Below the pieces are notes generated by a model, which ran no database searches, was not told where the DNA came from, and saw nothing but the letters and a program-made list of their open reading frames with translations. From positions 1 to 53,281 of the forward strand of contig DYDE01000012.1 in assembly GCA_020718065.1 (NCBI GenBank): 53,281 bases of DNA, read 5' to 3'. Made by a program: the position numbers and the translations under genes. Below are positions 1,874 through 11,136 of the stretch, in pieces (within the stretch, counting starts at the first letter, position 1; each line of letters starts with the position of its first letter). This stretch comes from Marinifilum sp. GTDB lineage: Bacteria > Bacteroidota > Bacteroidia > Bacteroidales > CG2-30-32-10.

Positions 1874-1967
1874 TAGAGAGGACGGGACTGGTGTTCCATC
1901 TGGTCTTCAAAACCAGTAACAGACGGATAAAACCGGCTGTGGCAGGTTCGATCCCTGCCTTCTCTGC
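1874..1967 (+). tRNA. selC: tRNA-Sec (anticodon UCA)
   Basis: Anticodon arm CTGGT-CTTCAAA-ACCAG (TCA anticodon), long variable arm ACAGaCGG-ataaaa-CCGgCTGT, T arm GCAGG-TTCGATC-CCTGC, acceptor AGAGAGG/CTTCTCT; directly upstream of selA. Confidence 0.93.
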
Positions 1968-2001: not shown

Positions 2002-3411
2002 ATGACCACAAACAAGGAGGTTTTTAAAAACCTTCCAGCTGTTGACAAGCTACTTTGTTTACCCGAAGTACGTCTTCTTATAGATAATTATGGAAAAGAA
2101 TTAGTAATTTTTTCCATCCGAAACACTATTGAATTATTCAGAACTGCCATCCACAAAGGCAGTCAGCCACCAACCCACAACCAAATCCTTGATAAAATAA
2201 ATTCGCTCATCAATTTGTGTGGCAACAGAAGCCTCAAAAGAGTTATAAATACTACAGGTATTATCATTCATACAAATTTAGGTCGTTCTCCTTTCGGAGA
2301 ATCTATGATAAATGATTCTATCGAAACATTAAAAGGATACAACAACCTGGAGTTTAATCTCGAAACCGCTAATAGAGGAAACAGAAACGATCATGCATCC
2401 GACCTACTGAAGTTTCTGACTGGTGCAGAAGATATTCTTATTGTAAACAACAATGCCGCTGCTGTAATGATGATCTTGAGAACTTTTGCCAAAAACAAAG
2501 AAGTAATAGTTTCAAGAGGTGAATTAATAGAAATTGGTGGTTCTTTCAGAGTCCCTGAAATAATGGCTGCTTCTGATTGCAAAATGGTTGAGGTAGGCAC
2601 TACAAACAAAACCAATCTTGAAGATTATAAAAAGGCAATTACTAAAAAAACAGGAATCCTTTTCAAAGCCCATAAATCTAATTATGTCATCAAGGGATTC
2701 ACAAAAGAAGTTGAACTAAAAGAATTATCAGATCTGGGAAAACAGCATAATATTCCTGTGCTTTACGACTTGGGTTCAGGTTTATTAAGAAAAAACAACA
2801 ATAAACTTTTAAAAGATGAACCTGATGTGAGAAAATCGCTTGAAAGCGGTGTTGACCTGCTTTGTTTTAGTGGAGATAAATTACTTGGAGGACCTCAGGC
2901 GGGTATCATTGCTGGTAAAAAAGCTTATATTGATAAATTAAAGAAAGAACCAATGTTACGTGCTTTAAGAGTGTGTAAGTTAACATTGGCTTTTCTTGAA
3001 ACAGCTTGTATGTATTATTTGAATGAAAGAGACCTGAATGAAAAGAATTTAACTTACAAAACATTCAACAGAAAACCGGAAGAAATAAAAAAAATCGCAG
3101 AAATACTAAAAACAGAACTTGATAAAAATGGCATTTCTACTGAAATAGTTAAAAGCACAGGTCAATGTGGCGGAGGAACCCTGCCTGATGCAGAAATAGA
3201 AAGTTATTCAGTAATGATAAAGAAGGCTTCTTCAAATAAAATAAGGTCTGAGTATGCAGAAAAAATGTTTTCCGGCTTTTTAAGTCACCCCCAACCAATA
3301 TTAGCGATCTTAAAAAAAGGGAACATCTATTTTGATGTTTTAACGATATATGAAAAAGATATAGAGGAATTGGTCAAAATAATTATTGAAGTAATCAATA
3401 AAACAAAGTAG
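2002..3411 (+). CDS. selA: L-seryl-tRNA(Sec) selenium transferase
   Basis: 469 aa; motifs RVINTTGIIIHTNLGRSP, NNNAAAVMMIL, FSGDKLLGGPQAGII typical of SelA. Confidence 0.96.
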   Translation: MTTNKEVFKNLPAVDKLLCLPEVRLLIDNYGKELVIFSIRNTIELFRTAIHKGSQPPTHNQILDKINSLINLCGNRSLKRVINTTGIIIHTNLGRSPFGESMINDSIETLKGYNNLEFNLETANRGNRNDHASDLLKFLTGAEDILIVNNNAAAVMMILRTFAKNKEVIVSRGELIEIGGSFRVPEIMAASDCKMVEVGTTNKTNLEDYKKAITKKTGILFKAHKSNYVIKGFTKEVELKELSDLGKQHNIPVLYDLGSGLLRKNNNKLLKDEPDVRKSLESGVDLLCFSGDKLLGGPQAGIIAGKKAYIDKLKKEPMLRALRVCKLTLAFLETACMYYLNERDLNEKNLTYKTFNRKPEEIKKIAEILKTELDKNGISTEIVKSTGQCGGGTLPDAEIESYSVMIKKASSNKIRSEYAEKMFSGFLSHPQPILAILKKGNIYFDVLTIYEKDIEELVKIIIEVINKTK

Positions 3412-3412
3412 G

Positions 3413-5383
3413 ATGAAGCATTTAATAATGGGTACTGCTGGTCATGTGGACCATGGAAAAACTTCTCTTGTAAAACTATTAACCGATATTGATTGCGATA
3501 CCCATAAAGAGGAAAAACTAAGAGGAATAACTATAAATTTAGGTTTTTCTTATTTAAACCTTCCCAATGGCGAGTCTGTTGGAATTGTAGATGTCCCTGG
3601 ACATAAGGACTTTATTAACACAATGGTTGGTGGTGCTTGTGGAATTGATTTTGTGATGCTGGTTATTGCTGCTGATAGTGGAATTATGCCTCAAACTGTA
3701 GAACATTTAAATATTATCAATGCTCTTGGAATAACAAAAGGAGTGGTTGCACTTACTAAAATTGATTTGGTGGATGAAGAATTAATGGAAATTGCAAAAT
3801 ATGAAATAATGGAGTTTCTCGAAAACACAACGCTAAAAGATGTTTCAATTGTTGGAGTTTCTTCTTATACAGGTCAAGGAAAAGATGAATTGATTAAAGC
3901 AATAGAAAATGTGGTTTCTGGAATTGAAGTATCAGAAAAAAATCATCTATATAGAATGTACATAGATAGAATATTTAGTGTAAAAGGTTTTGGAAGTGTT
4001 GTAACAGGCTCCGTAATGGGAGGATCTGTTGAAATTGGCAATGAAGTTTTTCTGCTTCCGGGAAATAATCAAAAATTAAGAATTCGTTCTATTGAAAGGC
4101 ACGGGAAACCTGTTGATAAAGTTTTAGCTGGCGATAGAGCAGCAATAAACCTTATTGGACTCAAAAATGAAGATTTTAGCAGGGGAATGATTATTTCTGA
4201 TAAAAATCTAAAGGAAACACAAATGATCGATGCAAGTTTGAAGTTGTTCGAAAAAGATACTTCTCTCTCTCTATGGTCAACAGTTAATTTTCTGACAGGA
4301 ACATTTGAATGCCTTGCTAAAATGCATGCCATTAACAAAGATGTTGTTAACCCTGATGAAGATGTAATTGTCCAGATACATTTATCAAAAGCTGCTGTAT
4401 TAATCAATAAGGATAAATTTATAATCAGAAATTCATCCGGAGACAAAACACTTGGAGGTGGTTATATCATAGACGCCTCTCCCCTCCATCATAAAAAAAG
4501 AACAGCTAAATTAATTGAAAACCTGTCACAACTTTCAGAGACAATTTTAAATGATAATGCCACACACGAAATAATTAAAATAGAACTAAAAAAAGAATTC
4601 AGACCTTTCTCTTTAGAAGAAATAGCCGAAAAGCTTAATATCAAACCTGCCCGTTTACGCGAAGATATTGAAAAAGGGGTTCATAGTTTTTATATTTATC
4701 ATTCCACTGATTCGGAAATACTGATTGATAAGAATTATAATGAAGCTTATAAAAGCAAAATTATTAAAATCCTGGAAGACTATCATAAAGAATTTCCATT
4801 ATTGGCTGATGGTTACGAAGCAAATGAACTAGCAGGAAAATTGGGATTTTCTAAAATAAAAATTGGCAAAATATACCTTAATTTGATTTTAAATGAGATA
4901 GAAAACAATGGTCAGATTGAGAAAAACAAAAACACCTGGATAATTAAAGGTCACAAACCATTATTTGATGCAAAATCAAAAGAAGAACTCGATTGGTTGG
5001 AAAATGAAATACTAAACTATGGGCTTGTTAAGCCAGTTCTTAGCGAAATTGAAGAAAAAGCAATTCCTTTAAAAATACAGAAGAACAAATTAAAAATGTA
5101 TTTAACGTGTTTATCAAGAGAAGGAAAAATATACTTTTGGCAGAATGAATTTATTCACACAGAAATTGTTAATAAATATAGAAATATTTTACTGCAAGAA
5201 CTTACAAAGAAAGAAGGCATTCTAGACATTAATGAATTTAAAACATTAATAAATGCCACTAAACGTTTTGTGGCTGTACTTGCTGGTATCTTTGAAAATG
5301 AAAAAATCATTACCATACAGGGATTAGAGATAGCACAAAAGATTGCAATAACTGAATTAGGAAAAAAAATGTTAAAAAAATAA
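3413..5383 (+). CDS. selB: Selenocysteine-specific translation elongation factor SelB
   Basis: 656 aa; GTAGHVDHGKTSLVKLLTDIDCDTHKEEKLRGITINLGF GTPase motifs and C-terminal winged-helix region. Confidence 0.96.
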   Translation: MKHLIMGTAGHVDHGKTSLVKLLTDIDCDTHKEEKLRGITINLGFSYLNLPNGESVGIVDVPGHKDFINTMVGGACGIDFVMLVIAADSGIMPQTVEHLNIINALGITKGVVALTKIDLVDEELMEIAKYEIMEFLENTTLKDVSIVGVSSYTGQGKDELIKAIENVVSGIEVSEKNHLYRMYIDRIFSVKGFGSVVTGSVMGGSVEIGNEVFLLPGNNQKLRIRSIERHGKPVDKVLAGDRAAINLIGLKNEDFSRGMIISDKNLKETQMIDASLKLFEKDTSLSLWSTVNFLTGTFECLAKMHAINKDVVNPDEDVIVQIHLSKAAVLINKDKFIIRNSSGDKTLGGGYIIDASPLHHKKRTAKLIENLSQLSETILNDNATHEIIKIELKKEFRPFSLEEIAEKLNIKPARLREDIEKGVHSFYIYHSTDSEILIDKNYNEAYKSKIIKILEDYHKEFPLLADGYEANELAGKLGFSKIKIGKIYLNLILNEIENNGQIEKNKNTWIIKGHKPLFDAKSKEELDWLENEILNYGLVKPVLSEIEEKAIPLKIQKNKLKMYLTCLSREGKIYFWQNEFIHTEIVNKYRNILLQELTKKEGILDINEFKTLINATKRFVAVLAGIFENEKIITIQGLEIAQKIAITELGKKMLKK

Positions 5384-5394
5384 AGAATTCCATC

Positions 5395-6540
5395 ATGCAA
5401 GTATATCTGGATAATTCTGCAACTTCCTGGCCTAAGCCAACATCAGTTATTGAAGCCATGGCAAATTATTTAAATAATTTTGGAGGAAGTCCGGGGCGTT
5501 CAGGTCATAAATTTTCACTTTTAGCAGCAAGAGAAATATTTGAAATAAGAGAGATAATTGCTGAGCTTTTTAATCTTGCTGATTCAGAAAATGTAATATT
5601 TACATCCAATGCCACACATGCTATAAACATTGCCTTAAAAGGATTTCTTAAAAAAGGATCCCATGTTATTATCAGCAGTATGGAGCATAATTCTGTTTAT
5701 AGACCAATATGGTTTTTGAAAGAGCAGGGTATCATTGATTTTACTGTTGTTGGATGCGATAATAATGGAAAATTTAATCTTGATGAACTAAAGAATAGTT
5801 TTAGACCGAATACTAAGCTTGTTGTTTCTATTCATGGTTCCAATGTATTCGGAACAATAACTCAATTAAAAGAAATTGGTTTTATATGTAAAGAAAAAGG
5901 AGTAGCATTTATGGTAGATGCAGCACAAACGGCTGGGTTTATTCCTATTGATATGCAAAAAGCAAACATCTCTATCTTAGCATTCACAGGTCATAAAAAG
6001 TTATTTGGCCCCTCAGGAATTGGGGGTTTATGTATTGATGGAAATATTGATATTGCAACTTCAATTCATGGTGGCACAGGAAGTAAATCCGAATTGGATG
6101 CTCATCCTGATTTTTATCCTGACAAGTTGGAAGCTGGAACTCCTAATACTGTTGGAATTGTTGGACTTAAAGCAGGGATATTATATATATTAAATAAAGG
6201 TATTGATAATTTAAGAAAACAGCAAACACAATTAACCGAATATTTTATTAATCAATTAAATGAAATAGATGAAGTAATTCTATATAGACCTGATACGAAC
6301 GGAGAAAGATTATCTCTTGTTTCTCTAAATATAAAAAATATGATTTCCAGCGATTTGGCTTATAAACTAGATAAAAATTATAATATTATGGTAAGAGCAG
6401 GATTGCATTGTACTCCACAAGCCCATAAAACCATGGGTACATTCCCCTTGGGAACTGTTAGGTTTAGTATTGGGTGTTTCAATACAGAAGAAGAAATTAA
6501 ATATACCATCGAATCATTAAAAAAGATTGTTCTAATTTAA
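5395..6540 (+). CDS. Cysteine desulfurase / selenocysteine lyase-like class V aminotransferase
   Basis: 381 aa; YLDNSATSWPKP, GGSPGRSGHKFS, FMVDAAQTAG, FTGHKKLFGPSGIGGL (PLP lysine); inside selenium cluster. Confidence 0.9.
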   Translation: MQVYLDNSATSWPKPTSVIEAMANYLNNFGGSPGRSGHKFSLLAAREIFEIREIIAELFNLADSENVIFTSNATHAINIALKGFLKKGSHVIISSMEHNSVYRPIWFLKEQGIIDFTVVGCDNNGKFNLDELKNSFRPNTKLVVSIHGSNVFGTITQLKEIGFICKEKGVAFMVDAAQTAGFIPIDMQKANISILAFTGHKKLFGPSGIGGLCIDGNIDIATSIHGGTGSKSELDAHPDFYPDKLEAGTPNTVGIVGLKAGILYILNKGIDNLRKQQTQLTEYFINQLNEIDEVILYRPDTNGERLSLVSLNIKNMISSDLAYKLDKNYNIMVRAGLHCTPQAHKTMGTFPLGTVRFSIGCFNTEEEIKYTIESLKKIVLI

Positions 6541-6541
6541 A

Positions 6542-7159
6542 ATGAAATATATGAAAATAATTGATGCAAAAGGAAAACTTTGCCCATTGCCACTTATTAT
6601 GACAAAAAAAGCACTCAGCGAAATCAACGAGAACGAAACATTGAAGGTGCTTATTGATAACGATATTTCTGTAAAAAATGTTACCCGTTTCCTAGAAGAT
6701 AATGGACTAAAGGCCAATGTTGAAAAGAAAGGTGATATATATGAATTAACAGTTAACAAAACAGGAAATATCCCCGAAAGTGTTAAAGCTGAAGATTATT
6801 GTTCCATCGATAATGCGAAAGTTGGCAATTTTGTTATTGCAATCTTAAAAAATAAACTTGGCGAAGGCTCAGATGAGCTTGGTGAATTGCTGATAAAAGG
6901 ATTTATTAATACATTGCCCGAAGCCACTTTAAAACCTAAAACAATTGTATTTATGAATGGAGGAATACATTTGGCAGTGAAAGATTCACCTGTAATTGAT
7001 GCTTTAAAAAAACTTGAATTGCTTGGTGTTGAATTATTAATTTGCGGTGCCTGTCTTGATTATTTTAAAAAGAAAGATGAATTAGTCATAGGAAGAGTTT
7101 CCAATATGTACGAGATTATCGAGAAATTAACTCAGACAGCCAAAGTGATTTACCCGTAA
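6542..7159 (+). CDS. yedF: Selenium metabolism protein YedF (TusA-like + DsrE-like domains)
   Basis: 205 aa; N-terminal GKLCPLPLIMTKKAL (TusA CPxP) and C-terminal DsrE-like VFMNGGIHLAV...LLICGACLDYF. Confidence 0.92.
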   Translation: MKYMKIIDAKGKLCPLPLIMTKKALSEINENETLKVLIDNDISVKNVTRFLEDNGLKANVEKKGDIYELTVNKTGNIPESVKAEDYCSIDNAKVGNFVIAILKNKLGEGSDELGELLIKGFINTLPEATLKPKTIVFMNGGIHLAVKDSPVIDALKKLELLGVELLICGACLDYFKKKDELVIGRVSNMYEIIEKLTQTAKVIYP

Positions 7160-7165
7160 AATTGT

Positions 7166-7420
7166 GTGTTTTTTGATTCACCTGAATATATGAAATACAA
7201 AATATTAATATTCGAATCTATACATAAAGTATTGAAAGCAGAAAAGATTCTTTTGAAGAACAACATAAAACATGAAATAGTTCCAACTCCAAAAGAAATA
7301 ACATCAGATTGTGGAATGTCAATTAGAATTAACCCTGAAATAGTCAATTTGCAAGATATAACAACAATGTTACTAAATAATAAATTTGAATTTAAAGTTA
7401 GCGATAAAGAAATAGTATGA
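7166..7420 (+). CDS. DUF3343 family protein
   Basis: 84 aa; KVLKAEKILLKNNIKHEIVPTPKEITSDCGMSIRI is typical of DUF3343; between yedF and selD. Real start may be at the later ATG (MKYKILIF). Confidence 0.88.
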   Translation: MFFDSPEYMKYKILIFESIHKVLKAEKILLKNNIKHEIVPTPKEITSDCGMSIRINPEIVNLQDITTMLLNNKFEFKVSDKEIV

Positions 7421-8454
7421 AAACTTTTGATTTGCTAAGTACCATAGAATATGGAGGTTGTTCAGCAAAGCTTCCTGCAAAAGAATTAAATGAAGCATTA
7501 GCTGATTTACCAAAAACAAAACATAAAAATCTGTTAGTTGATATAGACACCCATGATGATGCAGGTGTATATAAGATCAACGATGAAATTGCATTGATTC
7601 AAACTACAGATTTTTTCCCTCCTGTTTGTTCAGATCCGTACGAATTCGGCCAGATTGCTGCTGCAAACTCATTAAGTGATGTTTATGCTATGGGGGGAGA
7701 AGTTCTTACAGCACTTAATCTTGTTATGTTTCCTGCAAAAGTTTCTTTAAATATTTTAAAAGAAATATTAAAAGGAGGTACTGATAAGGTAATTGAAGCA
7801 GGTGGAGTAATAGTTGGAGGACATACAATTGTTGATATTACTCCAAAATATGGACTTGCAGTTACTGGAGTTGTTCATCCAAATAGAATAATTACAAATG
7901 CTGCTGCAAAACCTGGTGATTTATTGTTACTCACCAAACCAATTGGTGCTGGAATTATTATGGCTGGTAAAAGAATTGGAGAAATTGACATTGAAACATA
8001 TCAATCTGTCCTTGATAGTATGAAACAACTAAATAAAGCAGGTTCACAGATAATGCAAAATTATAATGTAAAATGTGCAACTGACATTACTGGTTTTGGA
8101 CTTATGGGTCATGCTTTAAAAATGGCATTGGGGAGCAATGTTTCCATAAAAATAGAATCGCAAAAAGTTCCATATTTTAAAGGTTCTTTAAAACTCATTG
8201 AGCTTGGTTGCATTCCTGGTGCTTGTTTTCGAAATCAGGAATATGTTGAAATTAGTTGTAAACTAGAAAAATCATTGGAATACAATAACAAAATGTTGTT
8301 GTTCGACGCGCAAACATCAGGTGGCTTGCTTATTTGCTGTTCTAAAGACAATGTAGAGAAAATAAAAAAAGATCTTATTGAAGCTGGATATTATCATACA
8401 GCAATTGTCGGAGAAGTTTTAGATAAAGAAAATAAACCCATAGTGATTTGTTAA
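7417..8454 (+). CDS. selD: Selenide, water dikinase (Cys form)
   Basis: 345 aa; EYGGCSAKLP, DDAGVYKINDEIALIQTTDFFPP, ANSLSDVYAMGG, DITGFGLMGHA. Overlaps DUF3343 stop by 4 nt. Confidence 0.96.
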   Translation: MKTFDLLSTIEYGGCSAKLPAKELNEALADLPKTKHKNLLVDIDTHDDAGVYKINDEIALIQTTDFFPPVCSDPYEFGQIAAANSLSDVYAMGGEVLTALNLVMFPAKVSLNILKEILKGGTDKVIEAGGVIVGGHTIVDITPKYGLAVTGVVHPNRIITNAAAKPGDLLLLTKPIGAGIIMAGKRIGEIDIETYQSVLDSMKQLNKAGSQIMQNYNVKCATDITGFGLMGHALKMALGSNVSIKIESQKVPYFKGSLKLIELGCIPGACFRNQEYVEISCKLEKSLEYNNKMLLFDAQTSGGLLICCSKDNVEKIKKDLIEAGYYHTAIVGEVLDKENKPIVIC

Positions 8455-8472
8455 AGAATTGTCAATACAAAA

Positions 8473-8712
8473 ATGGAAGAAAACTATAAGAAAATATGGA
8501 AATATGATGATGAATACAATGGTAAAGAAGAAGGTTGTGGAGAACTAATCCTAAATCTGTTTATTTTTTTCAAAACAGTAAAGCCAGGAATGGTCGTTTG
8601 TGTTACAGCATATGATATAGGTGCATCACATGAAATCGAATCATGGTGTCGCTCTACAAATAAGATTTTACATGAATCAAAACATCCCTATTATTTAATA
8701 GAGAAAAAATAA
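8473..8712 (+). CDS. TusA-like small protein with CGEL instead of CPxP
   Basis: 79 aa; GCGELILNLFIFFKTVKPGMVVCVTAYDIGASHEIESWCRSTNKIL resembles the TusA/SirA fold. Confidence 0.7.
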   Translation: MEENYKKIWKYDDEYNGKEEGCGELILNLFIFFKTVKPGMVVCVTAYDIGASHEIESWCRSTNKILHESKHPYYLIEKK

Positions 8713-8714
8713 AT

Positions 8715-8736
8715 AGAAGATTTTTGAAAATCTTCT
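8715..8736 (+). terminator. Small hairpin downstream of TusA-like gene (weak terminator or processing site)
   Basis: AGAAGATTTT-tg-AAAATCTTCT inverted repeat, no clear T-run. Confidence 0.35.
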
Positions 8737-8784
8737 GAATTACTTACACAATTAAATTAATTATTAACTTAAAAAAGAAAAATT

Positions 8785-9150
8785 ATGAATGGAAAATTTT
8801 GCGTGTCAATAACAAATTGTCACAAAAACCCGGATGCAATCACAGTAGGATTTGTAGTAGCAGGTGCTGCTTTGGGTTCTGAAAAAGATACTACTGTATT
8901 TTTAAGCACAGATGCTGTATGGGCTGCCGTAAAAGGTGAAGCAGAAAAGATTAGTATTGGTGAACCTTTCAAACCTTTGAAAGAGTTAATTTCTACTTTT
9001 GTTGAAAATGGTGGAAAAATTTTAGCTTGTACCCCTTGTTTGAAAACCCGTGGAATTACAGAAGATATGTTAATAGAAGGCGTGATACCTGCTGGTGGAG
9101 CTGTTCTTGTTGAATTATTAGAACAAGGAACACCTTGCATTACTTACTAA
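8785..9150 (+). CDS. DsrE family sulfur/selenium relay-like protein
   Basis: 121 aa; MNGKFCVSITNCHKNPDAITVGFVVAGAALGSEKDTTVFLSTDAVW...ILACTPCLKTRGI. Confidence 0.85.
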   Translation: MNGKFCVSITNCHKNPDAITVGFVVAGAALGSEKDTTVFLSTDAVWAAVKGEAEKISIGEPFKPLKELISTFVENGGKILACTPCLKTRGITEDMLIEGVIPAGGAVLVELLEQGTPCITY

Positions 9151-9153
9151 TAT

Positions 9154-9897
9154 ATGAGTGAAGATTTAAATCTTGAATTAATAGTCCCAGATCATATTTT
9201 TGAAGGTGGCGATTTAGATTGTGGCTCTGGTTTGGTATTATTGATTCGTGAAAGCATGAAGAAAGTTCCTGTTGGCGGCATCATGGAAATGCGTAGCTGC
9301 GAACCTTCTGTTTGTGACGACTTGCCTCCTTGGTGTCGGATGGTCGGACATGACTATCTTGGCATATTAGGGACACCAAAACAAGCCAGATATTTTATAA
9401 GAAAAAATGCAACCGTACAAGATGATGAAAAAAATCTGGAAAAAGACAAAAACAAAGCAAAAGAATATGAATGGCGAGCAAGAACAAGATCAACCGGACA
9501 TCTGAAAAGCACAGTTTATTGCCGGAACTTCTCTTTTGATGTTGGTCAACCAGCCAGCTTTGAAGAAAAAGATAGGTACCCATCAGCATTGGAATATCTG
9601 ATAGGCGCTCTTTCAGCATCGCTTTCTACTGCTTTTTCAACAGAAAGTGCTAAAGCAGGAATGAATATAGATGATGTAGAAATTTCTATTCGCTGCAAAC
9701 TGGTAAACATTTTGGCTCATTTGGGTTTAGAACAAGGCGATCCTAGTATTTCATCTGTTGAAATCAAATGCTTTATTTCTTCTATGGATGATGAAAACAA
9801 AATAAAAGAAATATGGGAACGGACATTAAACTGCTCTCCTATATATGCAACATTGAGAAAGTCAACTGAAATTAAGGTAAAAATGACTATTGTATAA
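9154..9897 (+). CDS. TusA-like / OsmC-like fusion protein
   Basis: 247 aa; N-terminal LIVPDHIFEGGDLDCGSGLVLLIRESMKKVPVGGIMEM..PWCRMVGHDYLG, C-terminal OsmC-like YPSALEYLIGALSASLSTAFSTESAKAGMNIDDVEISI...NCSPIYATLRKSTEI. Confidence 0.82.
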   Translation: MSEDLNLELIVPDHIFEGGDLDCGSGLVLLIRESMKKVPVGGIMEMRSCEPSVCDDLPPWCRMVGHDYLGILGTPKQARYFIRKNATVQDDEKNLEKDKNKAKEYEWRARTRSTGHLKSTVYCRNFSFDVGQPASFEEKDRYPSALEYLIGALSASLSTAFSTESAKAGMNIDDVEISIRCKLVNILAHLGLEQGDPSISSVEIKCFISSMDDENKIKEIWERTLNCSPIYATLRKSTEIKVKMTIV

Positions 9898-9966
9898 GTT
9901 ATAACCTTAATAAAAATAATAAAATCAATATATTATTGATAGTTTTTATAATTAATAACTTTTTAT

Positions 9967-11136
9967 ATGTATAAAAGCGATATACTATTCCCTGTTACTC
10001 AGGTTGGAAGCTGGCCTCGTTCAAAAGTATTACTGAAGGCACTACGAGATAAACAAAAACAACGTATTACAAGAGAAGAATTTGATACTATTGCTAACAA
10101 AGAAGCAGAGCGATGCATAAAGTATCAATTAGATGCTGGGGTTGATATTCTTGTTGAAGGGGAGCATCATAGGGATAATTTTTATTCATTTATTACTGAT
10201 AAGATTGAAGGTACAAAGTTGATGTCTCTTGCTGAAATGCTCGATACAGTTGAGAACAAAGAAAGTTTTGAAGAAATGCTCGATACTCTTGACGTACCAG
10301 CTTCTGCAATAAAAAACCCGACATGTATTGGGAAACTGAAGCGAAAAGAATCATTAACTTTAAATGAATTTAAATTTGTTAAAAGTTTTACTGATAAACC
10401 AGTTAAAATAACCCTTCCAGGACCTTATTTGTTAACCAGAGCGATGTGGGTTGGCTCCTATTCAAAAATGGGTTATAATAATAAATTAGAAATGGCAGAA
10501 GATGTAATTGAAATTCTTCGTCAGGAATTATCTGACTTGCAAGCTGCCGAATGTGAGTTCGTCCAGTTTGACGAACCAGTTCTCACTGAAATTGTGATGT
10601 CAGATGATTGCGGTAGACGAACATTCATGTGAGCTACTCTTGCTACCCGATCTGATTCGGGCACGGAATTAAATTATGCAGCTGAATTAATCAATAAAGT
10701 TGTTGCTGGTTTCGAAAATATTAGAACAGGAATCCATGTATGCAGAGGAAACTGGAGCAGAAAAGAAGAAACTTTATTGACTGGCGACTATTTGCCTTTA
10801 CTTCCTGCATTCACACAAATGAATGTGAACCAATTTGTTTTGGAATATGCCACTCCGAGAGCTGGTGAAATAGAAATTATTGGCAAAGCTCTTGGTAATA
10901 AAGAATTGGGGTTAGGTGTAATTAATCCCAGAACTGATGATGTTGAATCTACTGAATTTATTATAAGTAAAGTAGAAAAAGTTTTAGAATTTTATTCTCC
11001 AGAAAAAATATTTCTCAATACAGATTGTGGTTTTGGTTGTTTTGCTGAAAGATGTGTAAACGATGAAGAAAAGGCATATAGGAAAATTAAACAAATGGTT
11101 ATTGCAGCTAAAATTCTCAGAGAAAAATACAAATAA
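9967..11136 (+). CDS. Candidate selenoprotein: MetE-like (cobalamin-independent methionine synthase C-terminal family) methyltransferase with in-frame UGA at 10630-10632
   Basis: Two track ORFs (9967..10632 and 10777..11136) are in the same frame; the single TGA joins GRRTFM-[U]-ATLATRSDSGTELNYAAELINKV...GIHVCRGNWSRKEE. Zn-ligand motifs HVC, EYATPR and TDCGFG are conserved. Adjacent to sel genes. Confidence 0.88.
10641..10663 (+). promoter_or_regulatory. Putative bacterial SECIS hairpin
   Basis: CCCGA(10646-10650)-TCTGAT-TCGGG(10657-10661), apical loop 18 nt after the UGA. Loop G is not in the first two positions, so not a textbook bSECIS. Confidence 0.5.

Follow-up and report, generated by a model that had tools for sequence, protein, structure and literature searches.

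The window analysed here, the whole 53,281-nucleotide stretch of contig DYDE01000012.1 of Marinifilum sp. (Bacteroidales; assembly GCA_020718065.1), contains a complete selC-selA-selB-selD cluster and, after selD on the same strand, four further genes (8473-11136), the last of which encodes a MetE-like protein with an in-frame TGA codon (Table 1). This protein is referred to below as MetE(U).

Table 1. Genes, codons and RNA features of the selenium cluster and the downstream cassette, in window positions
Feature	Position	Strand	Evidence
tRNA-Sec (selC)	1875..1967	+	ARAGORN, Rfam RF01852
selA	2002..3411	+	TIGR00474, 525 bits
selB	3413..5383	+	TIGR00475, 315 bits
Cysteine desulfurase / selenocysteine lyase-like	5395..6540	+	TIGR01977, 468 bits; SclA model 371 bits, below its cut-off
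YedF (TusA-DsrE) selenium metabolism protein	6542..7159	+	TIGR03527, 210 bits
Putative Se/S carrier (PF11823)	7166..7420	+	E=3e-18
selD (Cys form)	7417..8454	+	TIGR00476, 377 bits
TusA1, small TusA-like carrier, CG motif	8473..8712	+	Weak Pfam TusA match
DsrE-family protein, CxxC	8785..9150	+	Pfam DsrE, E=3e-13
TusA2-OsmC fusion protein	9154..9897	+	Pfam OsmC E=4e-10, TusA E=8e-4
MetE-like (Meth_synt_2) zinc methyltransferase, predicted selenoprotein	9967..11136	+	PF01717 across TGA; pN/pS both sides
Asp202 codon, equivalent of the homocysteine amino-binding Asp (T. maritima D577)	10570..10572	+	Invariant in A4; role PMC539065
TGA codon 222, predicted Sec222, context TFM-U-ATL; Cys in Paracoccus	10630..10632	+	TGA in L003, L004, L005; Cys aligned in L008, L017
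SECIS-like hairpin, CCCGA/UCGGG stem, 6-nt loop starting 18 nt after TGA	10646..10661	+	Fold MFE -10.5 kcal/mol, z -1.2
H257-V-C259 zinc ligands (H618/C620 in PMC539065)	10735..10743	+	Invariant in A4
E293 zinc ligand codon	10843..10845	+	Invariant in A4
C354 zinc ligand codon	11026..11028	+	Invariant in A4

A TusA-DsrE-TusA/OsmC-MetE cassette

The MetE-like gene lies about 1.5 kb downstream of the sel cluster, outside the sel operon. SelD of this cluster is apparently the Cys form (GGCSAK) and not a selenoprotein, despite the Sec-decoding genes around it. The carrier proteins that precede MetE(U) have counterparts in three related Bacteroidales loci (L003-L005) and in Paracoccus: TusA1 aligns with the TusA proteins of both groups, with Cys22 and Cys59 invariant, the DsrE protein is 50% identical to Paracoccus DsrE and keeps the CxxC motif, and the TusA2 domain is homologous to the N-terminal domain of a Paracoccus TusA-MetE fusion (tblastn, 49% identity; alignment A7). 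The fusion partner of TusA2 is thus OsmC in Bacteroidales and MetE in Paracoccus, and TusA1 and TusA2 both retain their Cys residues. OsmC proteins usually contain a reactive Cys, and known OsmC-like selenoproteins have Sec at this position. In the OsmC domain of the window, inspection by eye places SxxS (STAFSTE region) at the usual reactive-Cys site, and peroxidase chemistry may therefore have been lost.

The order TusA1-DsrE-TusA2/OsmC-MetE(U) is identical in the four Bacteroidales loci, and the order TusA1-DsrE-TusA2-MetE is also found in Paracoccus. The sequence-only reading had placed the MetE-like gene at the end of the sel cluster; in the three relatives the cassette is separate from sel genes, none of which lies nearby, and selB, scoring above its model cut-off in each of these genomes, is sited elsewhere. 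Judged by gene order, the MetE-like gene is better described as a member of this cassette than as a member of the sel operon.

A very probable selenocysteine codon

With TGA translated as Sec, the MetE-like gene forms one frame of 389 codons, giving 389 residues with U222 as the single recoded codon. This joined frame, proposed in the sequence-only reading, was confirmed by translation and by a Pfam Meth_synt_2 (PF01717) match that spans residues 8-382, including the TGA, and that at 111 bits (E=7e-32) passes the gathering cut-off of 21 bits for membership of the MetE superfamily. Nine ORFs of at least 100 aa in the window end in TGA. Beyond it the MetE-like frame stays open for 167 codons, whereas none of the other eight extends for more than 41, which argues against a chance extension of the frame.

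Three further Bacteroidales genomes, all selB-positive as noted above, contain the same gene (81% identical in L003 and L005, 77% in L004); TGA recurs at the corresponding codon in each, and the frame contains no further stop. Synonymous differences among these copies are near saturation (pS 0.66-0.91) and pN/pS is about 0.15 (0.13-0.17) in each part of the frame, before the TGA and after it. Such equal purifying selection on either side of the codon, at near-saturated synonymous divergence, indicates that the downstream half is translated. Homologues in Paracoccus ferrooxidans and P. versutus (loci L008 and L017) are 34-35% identical, and the residue that aligns precisely with the TGA is Cys (RSFM-C-GAL against RTFM-U-ATL of the window). 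As aligned, this column is a classical Sec/Cys exchange between Bacteroidales (Sec in four of four genomes) and Paracoccus, as the sequence-only reading had anticipated. Three hallmarks of a selenoprotein gene are found here, namely a conserved frame with downstream homology, Sec/Cys exchange and Sec machinery in the host; selB also scores above its cut-off on all three Paracoccus plasmids. In total, four members with Sec and three with Cys were found, two of the latter belonging to one species. From these comparisons, it is close to certain that the MetE-like gene encodes a real selenoprotein in which TGA222 specifies Sec.

Two other explanations of the TGA were considered and rejected. If the gene were a pseudogene or contained a sequencing error, the TGA would either terminate translation or stem from faulty assembly, leaving the downstream half as a relic. 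Standard gene calling does formally break the frame in two at this codon, which is why the Sec form escapes it. The same single TGA, though, is present in four separately assembled genomes with neither a sense codon nor additional disruptions, either of which the sequence-only reading had named as grounds for abandoning the idea. Sequencing error is therefore very unlikely and, together with the equal selection on both halves and the Cys in Paracoccus, this makes a pseudogene or error exceedingly improbable. Even less credible is a genome-wide alternative code in which TGA stands for another amino acid, which has nothing in its favour beyond the in-frame TGA itself and is contradicted by the other window genes that stop at TGA without extension (no in-frame TGA was seen in other conserved genes of the window), by the presence of selB and tRNA-Sec, and by a homologue with Cys, not Trp or Gly, at this column.

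The sequence immediately 3' of the TGA provides a further signal. In the comparison of L003-L005, the first 14 codons after the TGA include 13 that can be compared, 10 of them identical, whereas over the whole gene the identical share is 25% (hypergeometric P=1e-4); only three of 285 windows along the gene, all of them overlapping this segment, are this high. This peak of synonymous conservation is as expected of a bacterial SECIS, to judge from its position. The window sequence and those of the relatives can fold into a hairpin some 18-20 nt 3' of the TGA, but its predicted stability does not stand out (z -0.2 to -2.6), covariation is absent and the window hairpin differs from those of the relatives. 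A SECIS element is therefore better supported by the synonymous constraint than by the fold.

Active site, Cys form and distribution

As the sequence-only reading had expected, the residues of the MetE zinc site are intact downstream of the TGA: H257, C259, E293 and C354 fall on the zinc ligand positions of MetE. S15, E66 and D202, which precede the TGA, fall on those of the homocysteine residues, and all seven are invariant among ten MetE-like proteins (alignment A4; for the roles of these residues in MetE see PMC539065). In T. maritima MetE, D577 belongs to the DEP motif of beta4 and H618, 41 residues on, ends beta5. The equivalent D202-H257 spacing is 55 residues here, so that the beta4-alpha4 loop is about 14 residues longer, and it is this loop that holds U222. 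The insertion with Sec or Cys was found only in this subfamily, other MetE-like proteins having no such segment or no Cys in it. The statement in the sequence-only reading that related MetE-like proteins have Cys near this position is thus borne out in Paracoccus but fails for MetE and core-MetE proteins in general, and Cys at the U222 column as a general feature of MetE was rejected.

The beta-alpha loops of TIM barrels line the active site, and U222 should therefore be near zinc and substrate. In the alignment U222 falls between D202 and the zinc motif HxC, and by the geometry extrapolated from this order it should sit where the active site opens. An AlphaFold model built from four sequences has a pLDDT of 55, and below 50 around residues 204-232, which is too poor for a U222-zinc distance; where U222 lies with respect to zinc is therefore taken from the sequence alignment. 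The best matches of this model (pLDDT 55) among solved structures are MetE entries. Given the conserved ligands, the MetE-like selenoprotein very probably has a zinc methyltransferase active site.

In Paracoccus, the Cys form is encoded in the order SufS-type desulfurase, TusA, DsrE, two unknown proteins, TusA2-MetE(Cys) fusion, selA and trxB. The two proteins between DsrE and the fusion (L008:7505-8011 and 8021-9589) have no Pfam match; by eye, one is apparently membrane-bound and one has a signal peptide. In P. versutus, selB is whole and lies within about 12 kb of these genes, and among the Paracoccus loci tRNA-Sec was found at that of P. ferrooxidans only. In the latter species selB appears broken, with its main part (model positions 1-535) and the final winged-helix stretch (546-580) about 20 kb apart (CP038202.1, near 1314888-1314992 and 1334378-1336093), the winged-helix piece near an IS5 element. 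The region of the P. ferrooxidans Cys-form fusion also contains a UGSC-family selenoprotein gene (CP038202.1; L008:3148-3717, minus strand) with an NUGSC motif and TGA at codon 96, which is annotated as two hypothetical proteins. A search for UGSC in the Bacteroidales genomes gave no signal, but its control was silent too.

A wider sampling of Bacteroidota returned only the window genome and one other of the same order, apparently that of L003, which indicates that the MetE(U) family is rare in this phylum; no close relatives were found among the viral contigs and phages searched. In the host genome MetE(U) is the only PF01717 protein. A complete MetH is encoded elsewhere in it, so MetE(U) is not the sole methionine synthase of the host and another role is possible. 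None of the FdhA-like proteins of the four Bacteroidales genomes contains a TGA, and Sec-containing FdhA is thus not what maintains the Sec trait in them, although other selenoproteins may contribute to this. The FdhA gene of the host, of the non-TGA form, is split across two contig ends (G000:C99 and C100).

Possible function and comparison with known systems

In the most likely interpretation of the locus, MetE(U) acts as a zinc-dependent methyltransferase on thiols or selenols, in partnership with a chalcogen relay of the TusA/DsrE type. The association with this relay, suggested by gene order and domain fusion, is itself likely, and for the joint reading as a selenoprotein, a zinc methyltransferase and a TusA partner we estimate a probability of about 0.78 from the sequence comparisons. 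According to the proposed mechanism, UGA222 would be decoded by the neighbouring SelA, SelB, SelD and tRNA-Sec to produce a single-domain zinc methyltransferase of the MetE superfamily. The TusA1-DsrE-TusA2 carriers would hand over sulfane sulfur or selenium, and a methyl group would be transferred in either direction. One partner would be a thiol or selenol bound to zinc (homocysteine or an amino-acid thiol related to it), the other a sulfur or selenium species that is methylated or attached to a carrier, with the Sec selenolate possibly serving as the reactive or redox-sensitive group in this step. The specific methyl-chalcogen chemistry, including substrates, direction and the part played by Sec, is put forward tentatively. 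More speculative still, and rather doubtful, is the idea that the cassette constitutes a hitherto undescribed route by which methylated compounds of sulfur or selenium are processed, in which a TusA-borne chalcogen would be methylated or demethylated by the Zn/Sec enzyme, with Sec directly catalytic and the enzyme a main reason for the retention of the Sec machinery in these Bacteroidales.

The main rival concerns the role of Sec, which could be a redox switch or a metal or metalloid sensor on an ordinary homocysteine methyltransferase, outside methyl transfer. Known selenoproteins are mostly redox enzymes (PMC13188914), the homocysteine-site residues are intact, and Sec lies in a loop insertion away from the canonical MetE catalytic positions, all of which would suit such a role. 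Against this, the need for a second methionine synthase is not evident in a genome with MetH, and partners of the TusA/DsrE type suggest that the substrates contain sulfur or selenium. We consider a switch or sensor less likely than not. Lower still is the probability that MetE(U) is a core methionine synthase of the MesA-D type, which would take its methyl group from a corrinoid or another donor and turn over better with Sec. In favour of this are its one domain of the MetE C-terminal type, the HCEC set of zinc ligands and the S/E/D residues for homocysteine, in which it resembles the MesA-D families (PMC7857596). MetE(U), on the other hand, is 23-28% identical to the other sampled MetE-like proteins, scores over no cut-off, and far below them, in the curated NCBIfam methionine synthase models, and is linked to TusA/DsrE and sel genes in place of the corrinoid proteins of MesA-C or the MesX of MesD; no corrinoid or folate partner was identified for it.

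MetE(U) is a new selenoprotein family within a known enzyme superfamily, none having been found in the literature searched. The 2026 review PMC13188914, which counts over 110 prokaryotic selenoprotein families, includes no MetE, PF01717 or cobalamin-independent methionine synthase among them, the family list of an earlier review (PMC9312934) has no MetE-family member, and among the models of NCBIfam release 20 none describes a selenoprotein of this family. The impression in the sequence-only reading that no MetE-family selenoprotein is well described thus agrees with the models and the published work covered, outside which most subscription literature lay. The family extends selenoproteins, beyond the usual thiol-redox enzymes, to the MetE-type zinc methyltransferase fold, where none was found reported, and, on the evidence of gene order and a domain fusion, connects the use of selenium with carriers of the TusA/DsrE type. 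Because a cultured Paracoccus carries the Cys form, the pathway is testable.

MetE(U) shares with MetE (T. maritima 1T7L/1XDJ, Candida 3PPC) the PF01717 TIM barrel, the H/C/E/C zinc ligands, the S/E/D homocysteine residues and the DEP motif. It differs from MetE in being without the N-terminal folate barrel, in its identity of about 20% and in its longer beta4-alpha4 loop with Sec or Cys; with its one barrel it does not match the two-barrel MetE equivalog TIGR01371 (109 bits against a cut-off of 930). With MesA, MesB, MesC and MesD (PMC7857596) it shares a single domain of the MetE C-terminal type and the conserved zinc and homocysteine residues, but it is less than 30% identical to the sampled relatives and is distinguished by the Sec/Cys insertion and by TusA/DsrE partners in place of a corrinoid or MesX context. 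Sec likewise occurs in a methyltransferase-type protein in the ArsM, MGMT and MduS selenoproteins (PMC13188914), whose folds are unrelated (SAM-dependent or alkylguanine transferase), none being MetE/Meth_synt_2. Another close system is the TusA-MetE fusion of P. versutus and P. ferrooxidans (WGR63586.1), which is 34-35% identical over the MetE domain, has TusA and DsrE neighbours and adjoins selA, and which differs in having Cys and not Sec, TusA fused to MetE and not to OsmC, and two extra proteins after DsrE. Finally, TusA and DsrE are likewise encoded together as sulfur carriers in the relay of sulfur oxidisers (PMC4175335), whereas in the cassette described here they are linked to a MetE-like methyltransferase and to selenium genes.
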